DNA of 42,407 bases, taken from positions 1 to 42,407 of IMG/VR virus record IMGVR_UViG_3300025110_000032. One strand, 5' to 3'. Below, piece after piece: positions 8,557-42,309 of this stretch (positions within the stretch are counted from its first letter, which is position 1; every line of letters begins with the position of its first letter). Made by a program: the position numbers and the translations under genes. The notes under the pieces were generated by a model. That model made no database searches. It was given only the letters and a program-made list of their open reading frames with translations, and had not been told where the DNA came from. Source of the stretch: a virus.

Positions 8557-9240
8557 ATGGCTCAATGGGCTCTGCCTCCTAATCTTCATTCGCATATTGA
8601 GGGTGGCCCATTATGTTTTCATTCCGATCACAACATCGGATCGAAAGATGGCAGAATTCCTCGCTATGCAGACAGTCATGCTTGCGTTAAATGTATTAGT
8701 GCATTAACTGAAGGACGACTAGCTCTAGATGTTCATCGCATTGAAAAACTATATAGAAGACGCTTCTTAGAATTCTGGTCTTTTGTTGAGATGGCTGGTC
8801 CTGACGAATGCTGGCCCTGGAGAGGTAAATATCATTCGCGTTGCAGGTCAAGTTACTTCTCAATCCCTAGACATTGGGGCTCTGGTCGTCAATATTCAGC
8901 AGCTCGTGTTGCCGCTTGGTTTACTTGGGGTGACCTCGGAAGACTTCCAATTAAAAATGTATGTGGAGATAACAACTGCTGTAATCCATTGCATATCCGC
9001 ATTAAAGGAGTACCTCATTATTTCCATAGGAGAACGATTGATTCAATTGATATTGACTTCAGTACACGTAAGTTAGAAAGCGAAACTCTATGTTTCCTCG
9101 AAACAACAGCCGATAAAGATCCAAGAACATTTGAACGATTAGAGAAGACAAATAAGATCTGGATCGATTGGCGGATGGGCAGCAACGAACCTGTTAACTC
9201 AATGATGGTTCCTAAATTTATGACTGAAAATAATTCCTAA
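8557..9240 (+). CDS. HNH-nuclease-like protein
   Basis: The centre has the features of a phage HNH family: FWSFVEMAGPDECWPWRGKY, then aromatic and basic residues (SAARVAAWFTWG), then CGDNNCCNPLHIRI, where NPLH supplies the N-H part of the motif. The usual first His before the Cys is a Gly here, so activity is not assured. A CxxC (CVKC) near residue 43 may bind structural zinc. The N-terminal 60 residues are unusual for the family and may be a separate DNA-binding part. It could be a homing or packaging-linked nuclease. Confidence 0.55.
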   Translation: MAQWALPPNLHSHIEGGPLCFHSDHNIGSKDGRIPRYADSHACVKCISALTEGRLALDVHRIEKLYRRRFLEFWSFVEMAGPDECWPWRGKYHSRCRSSYFSIPRHWGSGRQYSAARVAAWFTWGDLGRLPIKNVCGDNNCCNPLHIRIKGVPHYFHRRTIDSIDIDFSTRKLESETLCFLETTADKDPRTFERLEKTNKIWIDWRMGSNEPVNSMMVPKFMTENNS

Positions 9241-15545: not shown

Positions 15546-15878
15546 CTATTCGTCGTTTCCTAGGACAATCGCATCCATGTCTAGCTCAAAGTTGGTCGAA
15601 TCAATAATGTCCTGCAACGACTCTTCCTCTTCTTCACAGAAGGCTAAATCAGTATCATTATCTTCCATTATTCTTGACGGCAAGGAAGCTGTTCCTTCTG
15701 TAAATTTAAAAGCAAAACCAGCGTCCTTGCTAGCCATAAGAAAGACTTGCTTCTGTGTGAATCTCCCCTCCCAACAATCTAGTAATGCTGCGATCAAGTC
15801 TTCCCTCGAGTAGTCCCTGATCTCGATTGCAATCTTTTGAAGCAGGTATGCTTGCTCCATCGTTAGATCTGGGTTCAT
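15546..15878 (-). CDS. nblA: NblA-family phycobilisome degradation protein with C-terminal extension
   Basis: Residues 4-45 match NblA: LTMEQAYLLQK, then IRDYSREDLIAALL, close to the LxVEQxFxLQK...VRDISREDL pattern of cyanobacterial NblA. NblA adapts the Clp protease to phycobilisomes so that the antenna is broken down. The start at ATG 15876-15878 is chosen because AGGAG lies 9 nt upstream; a TTG at 15911 gives a longer version. At 110 aa it is nearly twice the usual NblA size, with an acidic C-terminal extension (AFCEEEEESLQDIID) of unknown purpose. Its first half overlaps an HNH gene in another frame. Phage NblA is known in some cyanophages. Confidence 0.75.
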   Translation of the reverse strand: MNPDLTMEQAYLLQKIAIEIRDYSREDLIAALLDCWEGRFTQKQVFLMASKDAGFAFKFTEGTASLPSRIMEDNDTDLAFCEEEEESLQDIIDSTNFELDMDAIVLGNDE

Positions 15879-16263
15879 AATGAATCGCTCCTGATAAACA
15901 CCATAGATCAAATAGATCGTTATTCAGAGGTGTAACCCATTCCTTAATTCTGTCTGCTTTTTCCGAGCAATAAAAAGTTTGCTCTTTATACCAGACCAAC
16001 CAATCACGTTGAGAACCTTTTGCTGAATTACATGGTAGACATGCTGGCACAAGATTAGTGCGTAGACTGCTACCACCAAAAGCTTTCGGTTTTAAATGAT
16101 CAATCGTTAAGTGAATTTTAGCCCCTTTACTATCTACCCCGTTTCCGCAATAAGCACAACAGCCCCATTCGTCTTTGATTGACTGTCTAAAACGTCTCAA
16201 AGCAGCACCTTTGGAGATCTCTACCAACCCGAAACGGTAGCTCTCCCAACGATCTGGTATCAA
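15730..16263 (-). CDS. HNH endonuclease
   Basis: Typical HNH domain: CAYC (Cys 36, 39), LTIDHLKPKAFGG (Asp 55, His 56), RTNLVPACLPCNSAKG (Asn 70, Cys 75 and 78, Asn 79). These make the zinc-bound beta-beta-alpha-metal nuclease. The domain is complete by about residue 115. The last 50 codons run through the nblA gene in a different frame, so the C-terminus is probably non-essential or recent. It may be a free-standing homing nuclease that landed before nblA. Confidence 0.8.
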   Translation of the reverse strand: MIPDRWESYRFGLVEISKGAALRRFRQSIKDEWGCCAYCGNGVDSKGAKIHLTIDHLKPKAFGGSSLRTNLVPACLPCNSAKGSQRDWLVWYKEQTFYCSEKADRIKEWVTPLNNDLFDLWCLSGAIHYEPRSNDGASIPASKDCNRDQGLLEGRLDRSITRLLGGEIHTEASLSYG

Positions 16264-22608: not shown

Positions 22609-22657
22609 TGGTGGCGGGGGGAAGATTTGAACTTCCGACCTTCGGGTTATGAGCCCT
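22609..22657 (-). other. 3' part of tRNA-Met(CAU): integration core
   Basis: On the minus strand the sequence runs from an anticodon arm (GGGCTCATAACCC, anticodon CAU at 22649-22651) through a perfect T arm (GGAAG-TTCAAAT-CTTCC) to CCCCGCC-A-CCA. The 5' half (acceptor 5' strand and D arm) is absent and the sequence left of the anticodon stem does not pair. This is the usual form of a phage att core that restores a host tRNA after integration. It is not a functional tRNA on its own. Confidence 0.85.
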
Positions 22658-22776
22658 ATGGTTGCGGGGCAAGAACCCAGTCCACCACTCGCTACGAAAA
22701 ACGACTGGGCCGTAAAAGTGGGCCAAACTGAGACTGTAACAATTCATCGGATGCATAGTCCGAAGTTTAACTTATT

Positions 22777-24844: not shown

Positions 24845-27055
24845 TTATCCTTTGATTAATAGCTTAGTTGATGAAATAGCAACACCAGCTACCACGCTTG
24901 GGTCATCTGCTGCCATAGATACTGTGCCTGCCTTTTGAACATAGTATGTTTTAGAAGGAGTTAAACCAGATTGAGTTGTTGTATTACCAGTTACTGCTAC
25001 TGTCCCTGATGCTGAGTCTGAAATTGCAGCACTTGAAAAACCTATAAAACCGTCTGCTTTCAAGTTTGATACTGTAATTGCATGTTGCTTAAGCCTAGAT
25101 AAAACATCTGAATTATCTGATTTATCTACAGCAGTCAATAGCAAACCTTCCCCGCTACAAGCAAGAGCTTGTCCATGTTCTTCCTTATGACTAGCTATTT
25201 GTTCAGACGTAACACTAACCGTACCATTAGCATTAAAACTAATTGTTAGGAGTTTTGTATCTTGTTGTCCAGAAGTGTCGTCAGCAAACGTATAAAATGC
25301 TTTATTTAAACCTTTGTCATAGGCACTGAATCCCATATAATCTTGTCTTCCAGCAAACAAAGTTCCACTACCTCCACTAGATAAAGCTGTAACTCCAGCA
25401 TTCATTGTGGGAGTAGCATATTTCAGATCATTATTACCTGAATTACTTCTACCTACAATTAAGAATCTCAATTCAGTTGCGATATATTCAATATTAACGT
25501 TACTAACAGCGACACCAGATATTATGGTTGGAGGTGTACTAGCACTAGTTTCAGTAACTATTGTGCCTGACCTAGTAAAAATTGCATAATCTATATTATT
25601 GTTGAATATACAAATACTGACCCAAGCATCTTTAGTTGAGTCGTAACATAGTCTCGTCGTATTGTAGCTATTTGCAGTAGTGCGGCTATTAGCTACATTA
25701 AGATTAGTTCCAACCGATATTGCTCCAGCAGTAGTTACAGTTCCCGCTTTTACTTGCCATTGTTGACTAGTGTTCACCCAACAAAAAATGAACCCACCTT
25801 TATTATCTGATGCAATATCTATAGTGTTACATTGATCATCTAAATCATGACCTGTACCATTTACGGTGATTGTTGTTCCACTAACTGTCAGTCCTTTAAC
25901 ATAACCACCACTATCCAATCTATTGTAAGCAACAAGGACAACATCTAGTGAAGAATCGTAAGAAGCACTAACTCTATGTACTTCAGAATTTGTTGCTATC
26001 TCTATTCTGCTTCCATAAGTAATACTTGTTCCACTAGCGGTACCTACTGCTGCGTTTAGTTTATCGTTGTTATTATCCGCTATCCAGAATAATATAAATT
26101 TTGTACTTGAAATCCATACGGCAGCTTTAACTTTAGGATCATATTGATGTGGAATATCGGTATTGGAACCAGTAGCAGCACTAAGGTTAGAGTTTCCTAT
26201 TTCACTAATAGTGCCATCTTCGTTTACACGTACTGGTTTATTTGCTGCAATAGCTCCATCTGCCGTAGCTGTTATTTCTGGAGCAGCCGATATTGTTGTC
26301 CAACTAGGAGCCGCACCAGATCCTCCAGATGTAAGGACTTGTCCAGATGTTCCGTAAGCTCCACCAATACCTAGTTTTGCACTGTTGGTTATATCGACAT
26401 CTTTTCTGAAGTCAAACTTAGTATTAGTAAAAACTGCATTAGTTGTATTGCTTGCAGTACCTATTCTTAATTCATCTCCTTGAACATATCCATAAGTCCC
26501 GTCTGAATACAGGCGCATATCATCGCCAGCTCCAACTAATAACTTCTTGTTGTCTATTAAATGTATATGTTCTGAAGACGTCCACGCATCCGTAGCATTA
26601 ACCCAGTTAAATGTTTTTGTAGTAGAACCGAGTAAGCTCCAGCCTCCACCATCGGCGGTAGTATCTGAAGGACTGGCTACTTTGCCTATCTCAATATTTT
26701 TATCTTCTACCTGAAGTGTCGTCGTATTAATAGTTGTCGTTGTTCCATTAACAGTTAAATCTCCACTTAGTGTGAGATTTACTCCTGTTGCTGTTCCTGT
26801 AAATGCTGGATTAGCTTTAGGTGCATAAGTACTAGTAGCTGTTGCTGTTGTTAAATAATCTCCTAACTCTGTTTGAACGTACGCAGTAGATGCAGCCTTT
26901 GTAGTGTTGTCATTAGCACTAGCAGTTGGGACTGTTACCGTTCCTGTAAAAGTGGGACTAGCCTTCGTCGCTAAGTTGCTGAGAATAACTGTTATCTCAT
27001 TATTAGAGGCATCCTCGTAAATTAAATCTTGAACTTTTAGATTACCAAATGTCAT
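24845..27055 (-). CDS. tail fibre / adsorption protein, 736 aa
   Basis: The N-terminus has repeated APKANPAFTGTATGVNLTLS, NGTTTTINTTTLQVEDKNIE, then SSEHIHLIDNKKLLVGAG, a module shared with the proteins at 27116 and 32352. Much of the rest is beta-rich (propeller-like or fibre-like repeats, e.g. SSTKFILFWIADNNNDKL), ending in a small C-terminal domain with TPSKTYYVQKAGTVS also shared with 27116. This fits a fibre that binds the host surface. A run of related genes side by side may allow host-range switching. Confidence 0.75.
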   Translation of the reverse strand: MTFGNLKVQDLIYEDASNNEITVILSNLATKASPTFTGTVTVPTASANDNTTKAASTAYVQTELGDYLTTATATSTYAPKANPAFTGTATGVNLTLSGDLTVNGTTTTINTTTLQVEDKNIEIGKVASPSDTTADGGGWSLLGSTTKTFNWVNATDAWTSSEHIHLIDNKKLLVGAGDDMRLYSDGTYGYVQGDELRIGTASNTTNAVFTNTKFDFRKDVDITNSAKLGIGGAYGTSGQVLTSGGSGAAPSWTTISAAPEITATADGAIAANKPVRVNEDGTISEIGNSNLSAATGSNTDIPHQYDPKVKAAVWISSTKFILFWIADNNNDKLNAAVGTASGTSITYGSRIEIATNSEVHRVSASYDSSLDVVLVAYNRLDSGGYVKGLTVSGTTITVNGTGHDLDDQCNTIDIASDNKGGFIFCWVNTSQQWQVKAGTVTTAGAISVGTNLNVANSRTTANSYNTTRLCYDSTKDAWVSICIFNNNIDYAIFTRSGTIVTETSASTPPTIISGVAVSNVNIEYIATELRFLIVGRSNSGNNDLKYATPTMNAGVTALSSGGSGTLFAGRQDYMGFSAYDKGLNKAFYTFADDTSGQQDTKLLTISFNANGTVSVTSEQIASHKEEHGQALACSGEGLLLTAVDKSDNSDVLSRLKQHAITVSNLKADGFIGFSSAAISDSASGTVAVTGNTTTQSGLTPSKTYYVQKAGTVSMAADDPSVVAGVAISSTKLLIKG

Positions 27056-27115
27056 GAAGAGATCTCTTCTTTTCCCAATACCCTTATTTTAGTAGAAGTC
27101 GTTATGACTACTTGT

Positions 27116-29449
27116 TTAACCTTTGATTAGTAATTCAGTTGCGGACAATGAATAACCAGCTTCTACGCTTACTTGTCCCGCCGTAGTACCTATTGTGCCA
27201 TCCATTTGGACATAATATTTTAATCCAGCGGAAAGAGATGATTGATTGCTGTTTGTATTTCCTACAACTTGAACTGTTGCTGTAGCACCAGATGAAACGG
27301 CAGATCCAACAAAGCCTATATATTTATCGTTATTTGAACCAGCAATAGAGGATTTTATTTGAAGATCCTTAGTTGTGTAATTACTAGTAATACTACAAGA
27401 ACCATAAGAACCATTCCATGTTCCAACATAAACAGCAGCTCTTTGTGTCACAATACTTTGAGAATTTGTGTTTAAACCTACTTTCGTACCTGCACTCATA
27501 GTAGAACCACTAATCGTTAATGGACATACTGTTATTCGACCTGAGTTATTATTTTGATCTCGATAAATTGCAATGACTTTCTCTCCATTACTATCGTAAG
27601 CTAGTGCGTTTTGAGAAATATTAGTATCTACAGTTAAATCAGAACCATGACTAATGCTTGTATTACTTGGATCGTAAGTTATTACAGCCGCGTGTGCAGC
27701 ATTACCGCTGTGCCTCCACAAACTAACCCATTTATTATCTTTTGTATAAACTAAAGAACTATAACTTGTTTCACTAGACCTAAGATTTTCATTAGATCCG
27801 ACAAGAGTAATTGCAGATCCATTATAAGTAAATGCTTTAGCTACAAGGTTGGCATTTGTACTATAAGTAATTATTCCTGCATTGTTGTCATCGTTTATTC
27901 TTATGTTAATTACTTGATTTTCAGCATTTGTAGCAACAGTAACAGTCGATTCTGAGACTGTGGTACTACTTACACTTAATGCAAATGCATAAACTGTATC
28001 CCCTGAATGTTTTCTAACAACAGCAACAGCTTTATCTGTTCCTGCTGCATCTACATCTACTCTAGTGCATTCATTTGAAGTTACAAGATCAAGTTTAGTA
28101 CCAAGACTTACAGAAGGAGCATCATAATCAACAGTGACAACTCTTGCTGCGGCTCTGGTAGAACCTTCATTCCATACTAATAAGAATTTACCAGCAGAAC
28201 CTAACCAGCAAATTGAGTGCCCTTGAGGAGTAGTCGTATTTAAATTAGTAGTAATATCATCATTCCAAGTAAGTGTATCCCCACTACCTTTTGTTCCAAA
28301 CCATATTCTCAAATTACCTGAAGATGAACCTTTGTTTGGTACGGCTACTATCTTATCGCTCGTAGCATCATAAGCATTCTGAAGGTTATGCCATGCTTGG
28401 GTGGCATTAAGATCAGCCATTGAACCAGTCACAGGATCAACAAGAGTTGATTCGTTTTTTACTTTTTCTACTTGACCGTTTGTTTTAAGAGCTATAGCGT
28501 CACCTGCTGCTAAAGCTTCTGCCGCAGTAGCCGTTATAGTTGGAGCCGCCGATATAGCAGGAGAAAGTTTGGTAGAATCTAGAGTGCTATTAGATGTTAA
28601 AACTGAGTAGAAAGTCGTTCCATCAACACTAAATTTAAGATCGTCTTGAATCCTTAATTGTGAACCATCTTCAGAGTTATTAAGCTTTAAATAACCATCA
28701 GAAGACCAAGCAACTTCAGCTTTATTAGTAGATCCTTCTCTAAATTGAATATAAGGATTATTTGTGCCTTGAAGAGTTATTTTTGCATCATTATTATTAT
28801 CAATCTTTAATGGAAATGCACCAGCCATAGTCAGGTTCAATTGACCAGCCATTGAACTAGCGTTATCAGTTCTTACAAATTTATCTTTAGCATCTCCATC
28901 TAAAGTTGCAGCATCTACATTGGTTAAAGTTGAACCATTTCCAATAAAGGTTTTACCGCTAGCAACTTGAATATGTTCTGAAGATGTCCAAGCATCAGTA
29001 GCATTTAACCAATTAAATGTCTTATCGCTTGAGCCCTTTAAAGTTATACCCCCATTATTTGCAGTCGTATCACTAGGCGTTGACACCTTGCCCAGAGTGA
29101 TATTGATATCCTCGACATCAAGTGTCTGCGTATTAATCGTAGTTGTAGTCCCGTTAACTACTAAATTTCCGCTTAGTGTCAGGTTGACTCCTGTAGCTGA
29201 TCCTGTGAAAGCAGGTGCTGCTTTAGTTGCATAATACGAATCAACGAAAGCCGTGGATGCAGCTTTCGTACTTACATCAGAAGCAGGTGCTGTTGGAACA
29301 GTTACAGTTCCTGTGAATGTAGGATTAGCTTTCGGTGCAAAGTTAGTCGTGACATAGCTTTGAGTCGCTAATGTACTCAGGACTACTGTGTTATCTCCAG
29401 AGCCTGTATTCCATATTAAATTTCTTACCTTTAGGTCACCGTAAGCCAT
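27116..29449 (-). CDS. tail fibre / adsorption protein, 777 aa, paralogue of the previous
   Basis: The same N-terminal module is present (FAPKANPTFTGTVTVPTAPA; NGTTTTINTQTLDVEDINIT; SSEHIQVASGKTFIGNG), as is the C-terminal GLKYYVQMDGTIGTTAGQVS with ATELLIKG. The middle differs and includes WFGTKGSGDTLTWNDDITT-type beta repeats. High-sequence similarity at the ends with divergent middles is typical of fibre genes that recombine. Role: receptor binding or baseplate-attached fibre. Confidence 0.75.
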   Translation of the reverse strand: MAYGDLKVRNLIWNTGSGDNTVVLSTLATQSYVTTNFAPKANPTFTGTVTVPTAPASDVSTKAASTAFVDSYYATKAAPAFTGSATGVNLTLSGNLVVNGTTTTINTQTLDVEDINITLGKVSTPSDTTANNGGITLKGSSDKTFNWLNATDAWTSSEHIQVASGKTFIGNGSTLTNVDAATLDGDAKDKFVRTDNASSMAGQLNLTMAGAFPLKIDNNNDAKITLQGTNNPYIQFREGSTNKAEVAWSSDGYLKLNNSEDGSQLRIQDDLKFSVDGTTFYSVLTSNSTLDSTKLSPAISAAPTITATAAEALAAGDAIALKTNGQVEKVKNESTLVDPVTGSMADLNATQAWHNLQNAYDATSDKIVAVPNKGSSSGNLRIWFGTKGSGDTLTWNDDITTNLNTTTPQGHSICWLGSAGKFLLVWNEGSTRAAARVVTVDYDAPSVSLGTKLDLVTSNECTRVDVDAAGTDKAVAVVRKHSGDTVYAFALSVSSTTVSESTVTVATNAENQVINIRINDDNNAGIITYSTNANLVAKAFTYNGSAITLVGSNENLRSSETSYSSLVYTKDNKWVSLWRHSGNAAHAAVITYDPSNTSISHGSDLTVDTNISQNALAYDSNGEKVIAIYRDQNNNSGRITVCPLTISGSTMSAGTKVGLNTNSQSIVTQRAAVYVGTWNGSYGSCSITSNYTTKDLQIKSSIAGSNNDKYIGFVGSAVSSGATATVQVVGNTNSNQSSLSAGLKYYVQMDGTIGTTAGQVSVEAGYSLSATELLIKG

Positions 29450-29506
29450 GAATAGGTTTCTTCTATTTCCCTATCAGTAGTTTAATTGAACCGAAGAACC
29501 TAACGT

Positions 29507-29680
29507 CTACTCTGGAACAACTTCAGTAGGTGTTGCCTCTTCTAATGCATTTATTTCTTCCTGAGCAATTGCTGTCTTTAATTCATCCACGGCTTTATTA
29601 GCTTCTTGAAATTTAGCACCTACTTCTTGCTGCTCTTTGACTTTCTCTATAAGTTGACGTACTAGTTCCTGGTTTGCCAT
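29507..29680 (-). CDS. small coiled-coil protein, 57 aa
   Basis: Heptad-like helix through nearly the whole protein (ELVRQLIEKVKEQQEVGAKF; ANKAVDELKTAIAQEEINAL), ending in an acidic/Thr tail. It sits between two fibre genes, so it could be a fibre chaperone or joint. Short enough to be missed by many gene finders. Confidence 0.5.
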   Translation of the reverse strand: MANQELVRQLIEKVKEQQEVGAKFQEANKAVDELKTAIAQEEINALEEATPTEVVPE

Positions 29681-29752
29681 AACAATTAATTGACGTATTC
29701 AAATTATAGATTATTTAGATCCTGACTGCGTTTACTGGTTGCTATGCCGACT

Positions 29753-32350
29753 CTAGGCATGAGCATAATATATGTATTTACCATTTGATCCATTCAGAGC
29801 GCCATCTGTCGATACTATGTCAAATCCAGTAGAAGTAGGATCGATTATGTCATGGCCTGTTATTTGTGCTGCACTGCTATTAAGTTTCAGCATTGGATCA
29901 TTACCACTAGCTAGACCACGTAAAGTATCAAATACTGCCCAATAATCTGCTGCATCTGTTCTCTTTATTATGATATATCTTGGACTAAACCCAGTCGTCA
30001 CGCTGAATCCAGTAGATCCTGATCCTGTGTAATAACCAACCTTGCTGATACCTGAAACGCTGCTGAACAACATAGCCAAATAATTGAAAGTGGCTTGATT
30101 AACCATCCTATCGGTACCCAAAGTAAAATGAGTTGACGTAGGAGCAGTGTCTTGCCAAGCACCTACATTATCATCGTCCGCATTAGTATCTTGTAGTCTT
30201 ATACGATATTGTTCAGGATTAGTACCACCATTTAAACCCTTGTGATATACAGCCCAACCATTATTATCACCATAGGTTCTATTCTTCACCATTATCATTT
30301 CTGGGACAGCGTTCAAATTGTGCGGAACGGAAATTGAACCTACTCCTGTTGCGCTATAAGTCGATGGGACTCCTGCATAGGTCACCACATCAAAGCCCTT
30401 GTGGCGTTTCCACATAGCTGCAACCCAAACATCAGTATAATTTTTACCAATACCGTCGTTATAATCGGTAGTATTATTAGTTTCAGCACCTTCTGCACTA
30501 GTAGTGTCAGTTGCTAGATTTCTTTCTGCGGTAAGTCTTGAAAACACTCTCCAATCTAAAACAGCAGCAGGTTGTTTCATTATTGCAAAATCAACAGCAA
30601 AATTAGAATCAAATGCTGGTCCTGTAGAACTACTATTACCCGTATCTAGAGCGAATAGCTCAGTAGCCGTTTTTAGCTTGCCAACGTATCCATCAGGTCT
30701 TCTAATGGCACAATAAACGTACGTGCCTGAGCCGTTATATTCAGCATTAGAAGATGTAAGTTTAAATCCAGTCGAAGTTAGATCTATTCGGTCATCAAGT
30801 TGTGCCTCTGTACCATTACTGTCAGCTTGTAGTCTTGCATCATTTTCACCTGTAACAATGCCTCTCATAGAGTCTACAATAGCCCAACTTTCAGCAGAGG
30901 TGCTTCTCTTAATCATCACCCATTGAGGCTCGAATCCTAAGAAGATTTCATTTGAAGACGATGAACTTCCAAGATAACTACCGCACTTGATTATCCCTTC
31001 CTTATTGTCTCCAAAGTTAAACGCAGCAGGGTCATCGAAGGGGCTATCTGTTTTTGCTGTTACTGTTCCCCATGCTGTAAGTGATGGTCCGACAGTTTTA
31101 CCAGTAGTTGAAGAGTTATTGCAACATAACATTGTGGTGCCACTTATGTTTGCTAATGGCTCAGTTGGCGGTCTAAATGATGACGTATAAACTGCTGTTC
31201 CTTTTACTACTCTGAGATTAGATATTTTCCCATTAAAGGAATAATTACTTGAATTAGCATACGCCCCTACAGCTAGTGCTCTGTTTGCACTATAGTTAGT
31301 TGAATCAGTAGCTGAAACTACTGCAGTACCGTTTACATATAATGTTGTCGTATTGCTGTGTCTAACATATGCAACGTGATACCACTCACTTTCATTCATT
31401 TTGTAAGCTGAAGGTGCAGTGTATTGACCACTAACATTGCCAGCATACATTACCCAAATACTACCATTCCATGCAGCAGCTATACCATCTGTAGCACCTA
31501 TTCCAGTTCCAGTATCAATATTAAAGAAACCACCGTTATTATTTTCATTATCGTTCTTTACCCAGCATTCAATAGTGAAATCTCCAGTTCCAAATGCAAA
31601 ATCTGAAGTTGCAGGTGTATTCATCCAATCATCCGAACCATCAAAATCCACGCTAACTGCTTCGCTGGCTGTGGACTCACCTCCGGCGAATATGTACGCT
31701 ACATAATTTTTACTATTTGCATTTGATGAACTAGATGAATTAACAGTGAATTGGGTAGCAGTAGGGGAGGTATCATTCCAATAATTTGAACTCGTTGCTG
31801 CTGCTTGACTATCATTTAATAATAATATTTTTTCATTACCTACGTCTCGATGATAAACAGACCAATGAGCAGTATCAGTAAGATTCTTTATTAGAATTAG
31901 ACCTGGAACACTACCAAGAGAATGAGAAATATTCTGAGTACTACCTGAGCCTGTATAGGTAACAACATCAAAGAACCCAGGTGCCTTGCGGAAATTCCAT
32001 GAAACATAATCCCCAGAAGCGTCATTAATACCGTTATCGGTACCTAAAGTAAATCCATTCGAATTAAAAGCAGTAACTCTCTGTGCGTATGGTCCTCCAG
32101 ATAATTCTGGATTGGTAATATTTGGACCTACAGTTTTTCCAACACCTCTTACTGTGTCAGTGATCATGTGGTTATAACCTTGATTTCTAGATTTACACCA
32201 GACTGCACCTCCCTCACCATCGAAATCGATACCGTTATTTATAGATTGGGCACCTCCCGTTCCGTCGTACAGGTAGATGCTGAACACATCCTCCATATAC
32301 GTCTTCTTTGCACCACCTACGCCAAGAAAAATTTGCTGCATTGGTGACAT
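29753..32350 (-). CDS. LamG/DUF7483-like tail surface protein, 865 aa
   Basis: Contains a concanavalin/LamG-like domain around residues 230-410 (FAFGTGDFTIECWVKND; WYHVAYVRHSNTTTLYVNGT). The rest has repeats that begin WNFRKAPGFFDVVTYTGSGS, continue ISHSLGSVPGLILIKN and WSVYHRD, and recur near residues 480 and 670-830 (VPHNLNAVPEMIMVKN; FSPRYIIIKRTDAADYW). The N-terminal YLYDGTGGAQSINNGIDFDG marks the cyanophage surface-protein type. Likely carbohydrate-binding virion surface or fibre protein. Confidence 0.75.
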   Translation of the reverse strand: MSPMQQIFLGVGGAKKTYMEDVFSIYLYDGTGGAQSINNGIDFDGEGGAVWCKSRNQGYNHMITDTVRGVGKTVGPNITNPELSGGPYAQRVTAFNSNGFTLGTDNGINDASGDYVSWNFRKAPGFFDVVTYTGSGSTQNISHSLGSVPGLILIKNLTDTAHWSVYHRDVGNEKILLLNDSQAAATSSNYWNDTSPTATQFTVNSSSSSNANSKNYVAYIFAGGESTASEAVSVDFDGSDDWMNTPATSDFAFGTGDFTIECWVKNDNENNNGGFFNIDTGTGIGATDGIAAAWNGSIWVMYAGNVSGQYTAPSAYKMNESEWYHVAYVRHSNTTTLYVNGTAVVSATDSTNYSANRALAVGAYANSSNYSFNGKISNLRVVKGTAVYTSSFRPPTEPLANISGTTMLCCNNSSTTGKTVGPSLTAWGTVTAKTDSPFDDPAAFNFGDNKEGIIKCGSYLGSSSSSNEIFLGFEPQWVMIKRSTSAESWAIVDSMRGIVTGENDARLQADSNGTEAQLDDRIDLTSTGFKLTSSNAEYNGSGTYVYCAIRRPDGYVGKLKTATELFALDTGNSSSTGPAFDSNFAVDFAIMKQPAAVLDWRVFSRLTAERNLATDTTSAEGAETNNTTDYNDGIGKNYTDVWVAAMWKRHKGFDVVTYAGVPSTYSATGVGSISVPHNLNAVPEMIMVKNRTYGDNNGWAVYHKGLNGGTNPEQYRIRLQDTNADDDNVGAWQDTAPTSTHFTLGTDRMVNQATFNYLAMLFSSVSGISKVGYYTGSGSTGFSVTTGFSPRYIIIKRTDAADYWAVFDTLRGLASGNDPMLKLNSSAAQITGHDIIDPTSTGFDIVSTDGALNGSNGKYIYYAHA

Positions 32351-40918: not shown

Positions 40919-42309
40919 TCAATATACGAATGAGTAAGCAACGGTTATGAAGTCCTTATTAAGAATTTCAAAACCAGCAAAGAGACTCCAAATCATAATG
41001 ATGAATCTTGAAAAATCATCATTGTTATTAAGAAGAATCTGTGCGTTGTTACCACCAATACCTACACCAACTGCCTGTGGTCCGAAGAACAACATTGGAG
41101 CAATTGTATAGTTAGCAGCACCAGCAGCGGCAACAGTTACTGTCGCGTTGATGGTTTTCTCAGGTAGGTTGGTTGATTCGAACCATCTTACGCCCTCGAA
41201 CAAAAATCCCGTCGGCATGACAGGCTGTCCGGCAACGAAGCCAGCTTGTCCATAAGCTGGACCCATACCTTGGAAGAAGTTCGCATTAGGAGCCTCGGAT
41301 GGGTTCATGGGGTTAACCATGCCATTACCGGCATACCTTGCGATCTCTCTGAATGCGTCGTTCTGGCGAAGATGCATCATTGCTGTTGGATCAGCAATAC
41401 ATCTGTAGTAGCCATCGCTGAACGTAGGTACGTTCCGCTTACGCATATCCTTGACGACCTGAAGCAGGTCAGTCTTTACGTCGAACTTAGCTGAAACGCC
41501 TGCAGCGTATGTGAAAACAGGGTTACCTGCTGCTTTTGCAGCTCCACCAGGGAAGTAATAGCCACCCTGACTTGAAGATGAAAGACCGTTAGCCTCTGCT
41601 TTAAATAGTTCGTCTGCAAATACTCTATCTCTCCAACGTCTGTAGTCATCTAGAAGGGTAAGACTACCTATGCTCTGATGAAAAACGTTGAGATTACCAG
41701 TGTCTAATAAAAGACGCTGTGCTGTTAAGAGAGTCTCACGTGCAACCTTGAATGTTGAAGGAGTAGTTGGAGCTGCTGGATCAGCAGGACCGGTGTACTC
41801 TTTTAGGTTGACGAGGACTTTGTCCTTAACAATATTTCTACTTGAAGCCGTGCCAAGAGTCTGATCAGCAGTACGCTCTCTGGAATCCTTATTACCAGGA
41901 TTACCCCAGAAGCGATATCTGTCTAACTGAACAGTTTGACCAGGTTGTTTCGAACAAAAGTTGACGATGTAGCTCTTTATCTACATCCACAAGATTAAGG
42001 ACTCTTGTGATCGGACTATATCTTCACCCTTTAGCAGGGGTTGGGCGCTCGTGGACGAATTACCGAGTTTCCTCTCGTCGTCTAGTCTCTGAACCTTCCA
42101 GATTGTCGTCTGGCTTGGCTGCTGATTAACCTTCTTTTCAGATCCGGTCTTCCAGCAATTCACCCAATTTTTCAAACAACTTACGTTGTATGGACTCCAT
42201 TGAAGTCGTGAACAACCACAGGCTCTACAGCCATCTCGATTATATAACCGGGATGCGGGCGGTAGAGTTCGGCCCCGAGTAGTTTTGGAAAATCATTATC
42301 AATCCACAT
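40919..42309 (-). CDS. major capsid protein, N4gp56-like, split by a group I intron
   Basis: Exon 1 (42203-42309) starts at ATG 42307-42309 with GGAG 11 nt upstream and encodes MWIDNDFPKLLGAELYRPHP and ends with HDF. Exon 2 (40919-41954) continues SKQPGQTVQLDRYRFWGNPG. Joined length is 1143 nt, 380 aa. The C-terminal part (KTDLLQVVKDMRKRNVPTFS, then DGYYRCIADPTAMMHL) follows the N4gp56-type capsid pattern. A standard caller would report only the last 175 aa from ATG 41446. In frame but upstream of exon 1 is a stop, so the start is firm unless another intron lies there. Highly abundant head shell subunit. Confidence 0.8.
41955..42202 (-). ncRNA. group I self-splicing intron in the capsid gene, about 248 nt
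   Basis: On the minus strand the core elements appear in order: P4 5' strand AATTGCTGGAA, P4 3' strand with AATCAGCAGCCAAG, P7 5' strand GGTTCAGAGACTAGAC, P8 region, and P7 3' strand AAGATATAGTCC. P9 (CACAAGA/TCTTGTG) and P9.1 (ATGTAG/CTACAT) hairpins follow. P1 forms between exon end GACTT and intron GAGTC, with the expected U-G pair at the 5' splice site. The intron ends in G at 41955. The splice restores the capsid frame. No homing endonuclease lies inside. Confidence 0.88.

Follow-up and report, generated by a model that had tools for sequence, protein, structure and literature searches.

How does this phage encode its major capsid protein, when the unspliced capsid region has stops in all three frames? 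Standard ORF calling of the window, by which we mean the whole 42,407-nt stretch of viral DNA analyzed here, retains just 40919–41446 of the gene, or 175 of 380 residues. The original prediction, which correctly saw that the gene would be hidden from ordinary annotation, explained the break by a group I intron, with splicing at 42203/41954 yielding a 380-residue product.

A scan with the Rfam model RF00028 (curated cut-off 50 bits) revealed a group I intron of 248 nt at 41955–42202 on the minus strand, with a score of 74.5 bits (E = 3.1e-17). The match spans 42212–41988 and model positions 1–253 of 253, covering the whole catalytic core, and the same scan found no second group I match anywhere in the window. 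Once the 248 nt are removed, 42309–42203 joined to 41954–40919 forms a gap-free 380-residue frame. A purpose-written spliced aligner, to which the boundaries were not supplied, recovered identical intron ends, and the predicted boundaries and product were thus correct to the base. The last base of exon 1 is U (42203) and the last base of the intron is G (41955). In the predicted spliced mRNA, ...CACGACTT is joined directly to TTCGAAAC..., and the predicted capsid protein includes ...VVVHDFSKQPGQ.... An ORF check of 41955–42202 found no endonuclease reading frame, again as predicted.

Most of the best 80 IMG/VR relatives align continuously across the junction (L003, for instance, at 94.7% identity), and the exon 1 start region is the same in the intron-free relatives L003, L007 and L015. 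In these homologs the segment is missing and is not read as part of the protein, which favors an intron. We put the probability that 41955–42202 is a group I intron inside the major capsid gene at about 95%; splicing in the cell would be expected from the sequence. The features of the locus are collected in Table 1.

Table 1 Coordinates of the capsid gene exons, the intron and its helices in the window
Feature	Position	Strand	Description
Exon 1, capsid gene	42203..42309	−	Start ATG at 42309; codons 1–35 plus two bases of codon 36
Group I intron, without endonuclease ORF	41955..42202	−	RF00028 and spliced alignment
Exon 2, capsid gene, including stop codon	40919..41954	−	Splice join and IMG/VR relatives
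P1	42193..42207	−	Exon GACUU (42207–42203) / IGS GAGUC (42197–42193); U·G at splice site
P2 hairpin	42176..42189	−	ACAAC-GUAA-GUUGU; 5/5 pairs covary among relatives
P3 5′ strand UUGGGUG	42161..42167	−	Pairs with CGCCCAA 42047–42041
P4–P5 domain	42119..42158	−	UUGCUG/CAGCAG closes P5
P6 hairpin	42098..42113	−	CCAGA/UCUGG
P7	42014..42087	−	GACUA 42087–42083 / UAGUC 42018–42014; encloses P7.1/P7.2 and P8
P9 and P9.1 hairpins	41966..42009	−	P9 CACAAGA/UCUUGUG; P9.1 AUGUAG/CUACAU

The joined protein matches the "major head protein" family phrog_1357 (E = 3.1e-21, residues 34–377), so its identification as a major capsid protein stands. Its description as N4gp56-type holds only distantly: the NCBIfam model TIGR04387 (N4-gp56) gave weak matches in 17 of 27 relatives (best E = 9.3e-6), and its threshold was not reached, member 1 scoring 21.7 bits against a cut-off of 60. 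The match to Pfam Phage_capsid_3 was weak and below its cut-off, a PDB sequence search found no relative of the capsid protein, and the best PDB matches of an AlphaFold model, itself poor (pLDDT 48.6), were phage capsids with E ≥ 0.045.

The sole related record in the phage collection is Synechococcus phage S-EIV1 (KJ410740), whose capsid protein, encoded by an uninterrupted gene, is 71% identical and which shares with the window three genes downstream of the capsid gene in identical order. By its capsid and gene order, the window phage can be classed as S-EIV1-like. S-EIV1 infects cyanobacteria (Synechococcus). It differs from the window in that its genome gave zero RF00028 matches. A terminase gene was not identified within the window. 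The intron conceals the window's capsid gene from ordinary annotation, and the uninterrupted S-EIV1 gene is mis-annotated too: the intact gene (KJ410740.1 60859–61989; L082:8001–9131), which seems to start at GTG, has been entered as a pair of hypothetical proteins, one of them assigned to the wrong strand. The phage capsid gene is also present in contigs L083–L091, which had been assigned to archaeal, planctomycete and other genomes; these contigs are therefore probably phage DNA placed in the wrong bins. Elsewhere in the window, 24845–32350 (−) holds three long genes resembling those for tail fibers or virion structure, two of which share phrog_30158, and a tRNA-like Rfam match at 22612–22686 (−) lies barely over its cut-off (31.5 bits), where ARAGORN reported none.

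Fold and covariation of the intron RNA

The core motifs quoted in the original prediction are all present, in P3, P4, P7 and the P9 region, and its P1 with a U·G splice pair and its P9 and P9.1 hairpins were likewise seen in the window intron. The fold energy of the window intron has a z of −2.7 relative to dinucleotide shuffles. The P7.1/P7.2 insert between P7 and P3 places the intron in subgroup IA, of which hairpins at this position are the mark. The P10 pairing in the window intron appears weak (UU:AA).

For the structure test, 26 introns from different sites were aligned, and 58 pairs taken from the structure of the window intron were scored. Pairing was found in 82.6% of cells, compared to 64.6% in shuffles and 25–47% when strands were slid, and the covariation score reached 0.435, a value attained by 0 of 500 shuffles (mean 0.139). 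Covariation was lost when the proposed pairs were slid or shuffled. In the 26-intron alignment, P3 is paired in 98.4% of cells with two-sided changes at 5 of 7 pairs, while P4 is 98.1% paired, its changes including G-C to C-G and C-G to A-U. P7 is 100% paired, P7.1 covaries at all five of its pairs and P8 is 96% paired; the outer pairs of P6 are paired in 61%. The inner pairs of P9.1 are 98.7% paired where alignable, and P9 is variable and not alignable across sites. Exon–IGS pairing across sites was better for cognate than for non-cognate combinations, with 0 of 10000 permutations equally good. One third of the non-cognate exon–guide pairs score ≥4.

In the mechanism that we propose, the RNA would fold after transcription, P7 would bind guanosine, and a cut after U 42203 would be followed by ligation of exon 1 to exon 2, releasing an intron that ends in G 41955 and leaving the mRNA for the 380-residue capsid protein.

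Intron sites in the capsid genes of relatives

Relatives were surveyed by Rfam and spliced alignment. The 216 distinct capsid regions of the lineage contain 101 resolved group I introns at 23 positions, plus two more. Single genes hold up to six introns (six in L300, five in L097, four in several others), a multiplicity that the original prediction missed. Across 128 viral records including the window (3.2 Mb), the placed above-threshold RF00028 matches all lie in the capsid gene. About 80 further viral contigs (among L292–L400, without a capsid match) have introns that share this P4 core, possibly in other genes. Because some loci were fetched by intron sequence and others by capsid homology, intron frequencies calculated from the complete set of loci are biased. 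When two scans relied on homology alone, each listing the best 80 relatives, introns were present in 10 of 80 and in 12 of 80, three of the latter 12 being cut short by a contig end. Near relatives differ in their sets, with site 35 in the window, sites 6, 35 and 283 in L102, sites 17, 48 and 132 in L320, and sites 35, 48, 132, 232 and 283 in L097. With at least 23 occupied positions, the lineage's capsid gene is, judged from these records, an apparent intron hot spot and the window no one-off case.

Intron positions are more conserved in the protein than random ones (0.938 versus 0.848; 0/10000), and the introns cluster by site, the nearest neighbor from another contig being a same-site intron in 74 of 80 cases. 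Sister families at different sites share a target and guide: s35 and s349 (CGACTT, GAGTC), s17 and s48 (ACCGT, GCGGT), and also s6a and s6b. In freshwater relatives, just four codons (GTG TTY ATT GAT) precede the intron, which makes almost the whole gene dependent on splicing. An additional group I match lies upstream of codon 4 in L356, the first exon of which was not found.

At site 35, an intron occupies the identical base in 17 distinct capsid genes from many different metagenomes. An exact search pattern for the window 5′ junction found nothing, because the other alleles carry G in place of the window's A; relaxing the pattern brought up 11 contigs. Each of the 17 alleles is bare, at 239–323 nt, and no endonuclease-bearing allele was found among them. 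At least two distinct intron lineages occupy the site, the L365 intron there being closest to one from site 132. The distribution at this fixed site is patchy, and at least eight state changes are needed on the capsid tree, which may be losses as well as gains. Together, the shared guides and the two lineages at site 35 suggest that introns have moved between sites within one gene.

Among the carriers checked, exons are intact in all but two. In one, L396, the start of the contig truncates an intron, and the aligner ran on into its sequence. The other, L399, has a fused intron (594–916) that runs from site 35 to site 48, with loss of the 12 intervening codons (SKQPGQTVQLDR in the window); it looks as if two neighboring introns recombined and deleted an exon, in a single contig that is possibly an assembly error.

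Most introns of the lineage measure 206–371 nt and hold no endonuclease ORF. LAGLIDADG genes are present in sense at s18, s88 and s107 and in antisense at s30 (L314) and s283 (L359), and an antisense HNH gene is found in the freshwater introns at s4 (821–823 nt; L252, L222, L240, L264, L281 and L287). L383 is among the LAGLIDADG carriers. Thus, the endonuclease is of the LAGLIDADG type at five of six bearing sites and HNH at the other. Bare and endonuclease-bearing alleles are both present at s4 (bare, 273–274 nt, in L236, L272 and L275), s30, s88 and s283, a coexistence expected from the known cycle in which endonucleases are gained and later lost.

These comparisons bear on whether the window insert is functional or even real. 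A dead, non-splicing insert would mean that the window's capsid gene is broken, which is highly improbable given a full core with compensatory changes, exons that are intact in every carrier checked other than L396 and L399, and persistence of the intron across many genomes. That the contig is metagenomic would allow an assembly artefact, yet the intron recurs at an identical base in contigs of many metagenomes and is precisely absent from the same gene elsewhere, which makes this almost inconceivable. Two further candidates were rejected: a pseudogene is at odds with the intact exons of independent carriers, and we reasoned that a 248-nt segment with a complete ribozyme core does not suggest translational bypass.

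Capsid introns in other phages

The original prediction overstated how unusual a capsid intron is, and the window intron joins a known kind. The major capsid gene of mycobacteriophage LittleE has an intron of ~819 bp, most likely group I, whose spliced product was proven by RT-PCR and protein sequencing, and a capsid intron of Tuc2009 is cited in the same paper (PMC3706429). As in the window, the LittleE intron lies in the major capsid gene, follows a U and ends in G, and its opposite-strand LAGLIDADG-like gene recalls those at s30 in L314 and s283 in L359. It differs in being a single ~819 bp intron in an unrelated phage, whereas the window intron is 248 nt, has no endonuclease and is predicted to splice. 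In the Zeta-group crAss-like phage OLRF01000054, the MCP gene is in five fragments with several insertions, and MCP introns occur in Delta-group crAss phages as well (PMC7886860). The crAss-like phages carry introns and inteins across many core genes (PMC7886860), whereas in the present lineage the placed matches are all in the capsid gene, at up to six per gene and mostly endonuclease-free.

Bastillevirinae have group I introns with a mean of 802 bases and up to three per gene (PMC11878797); as here, one gene can hold several, although the genes are those for polymerase, terminase, thymidylate synthase and reductase. Jug phages carry short group I introns of ~206 nt, on average 18.5 per genome, and metatranscriptome reads support 37 of 76 that were examined (PMC12363816). 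Those introns are spread over many genes, unlike the capsid-confined matches of the present lineage. In the open-access papers searched, we found no account of a phage lineage with introns confined to the capsid gene at such density.

Routes of intron acquisition and spread

The introns could have spread by endonuclease, by reverse splicing or by plain recombination, and we would put homing and subsequent loss of the endonuclease ahead of reverse splicing, our second choice. The window site was probably colonized by homing, with the endonuclease lost afterwards. Under this history, the window intron would most likely be the remnant of a mobile element whose ancestor had a homing endonuclease gene; the bare ribozyme would be kept because splicing renders it harmless, and it may move between co-infecting relatives by recombination across the highly conserved capsid gene.

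Reverse splicing, in which free intron RNA would insert into capsid mRNA at sites that match its guide and the cDNA would recombine back, is possible but doubtful. It would account for the ORF-free introns, their capsid-only occurrence and the recurrent use of sites. The absence of an endonuclease from most introns, the target motif and guide shared within each pair of sister families, the colonization of site 35 by at least two different lineages and the restriction of the placed RF00028 matches to one gene all point in its direction; the capsid mRNA presumably exceeds all other late transcripts in abundance. However, the route requires a reverse transcriptase, there are few sister sites, short guides can match by chance, and introns of the same family with endonucleases exist, making DNA homing available. 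In reviews, reverse splicing is still only a proposed pathway of spread (PMC3984707). That the capsid gene serves as a reservoir of introns copying between its own sites by guide-directed reverse splicing is, on this balance, a tentative idea that we would not favor.

Collaborative homing, in which a free-standing endonuclease acts in trans, is known for other phages, and the original prediction suggested that a nearby HNH gene plays this role. The window does encode an HNH endonuclease (PF01844) at 15730–16263 (−) and a weaker endonuclease-like gene at 8557–9240 (+). These genes are distant from the capsid gene and bear no informative resemblance to the HNH genes inside the freshwater s4 introns, and the predominant endonuclease within the capsid introns is LAGLIDADG, which together make this route unlikely.

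Homing followed by endonuclease loss is thus the reading that we prefer. If true, guide-directed copying would explain how up to six mostly endonuclease-free introns came to lie in the capsid gene alone. With its 23 sites, its bare and endonuclease-bearing alleles and its shifting intron sets, the capsid gene of this lineage offers a natural series in which the spread of bare introns could be tested.
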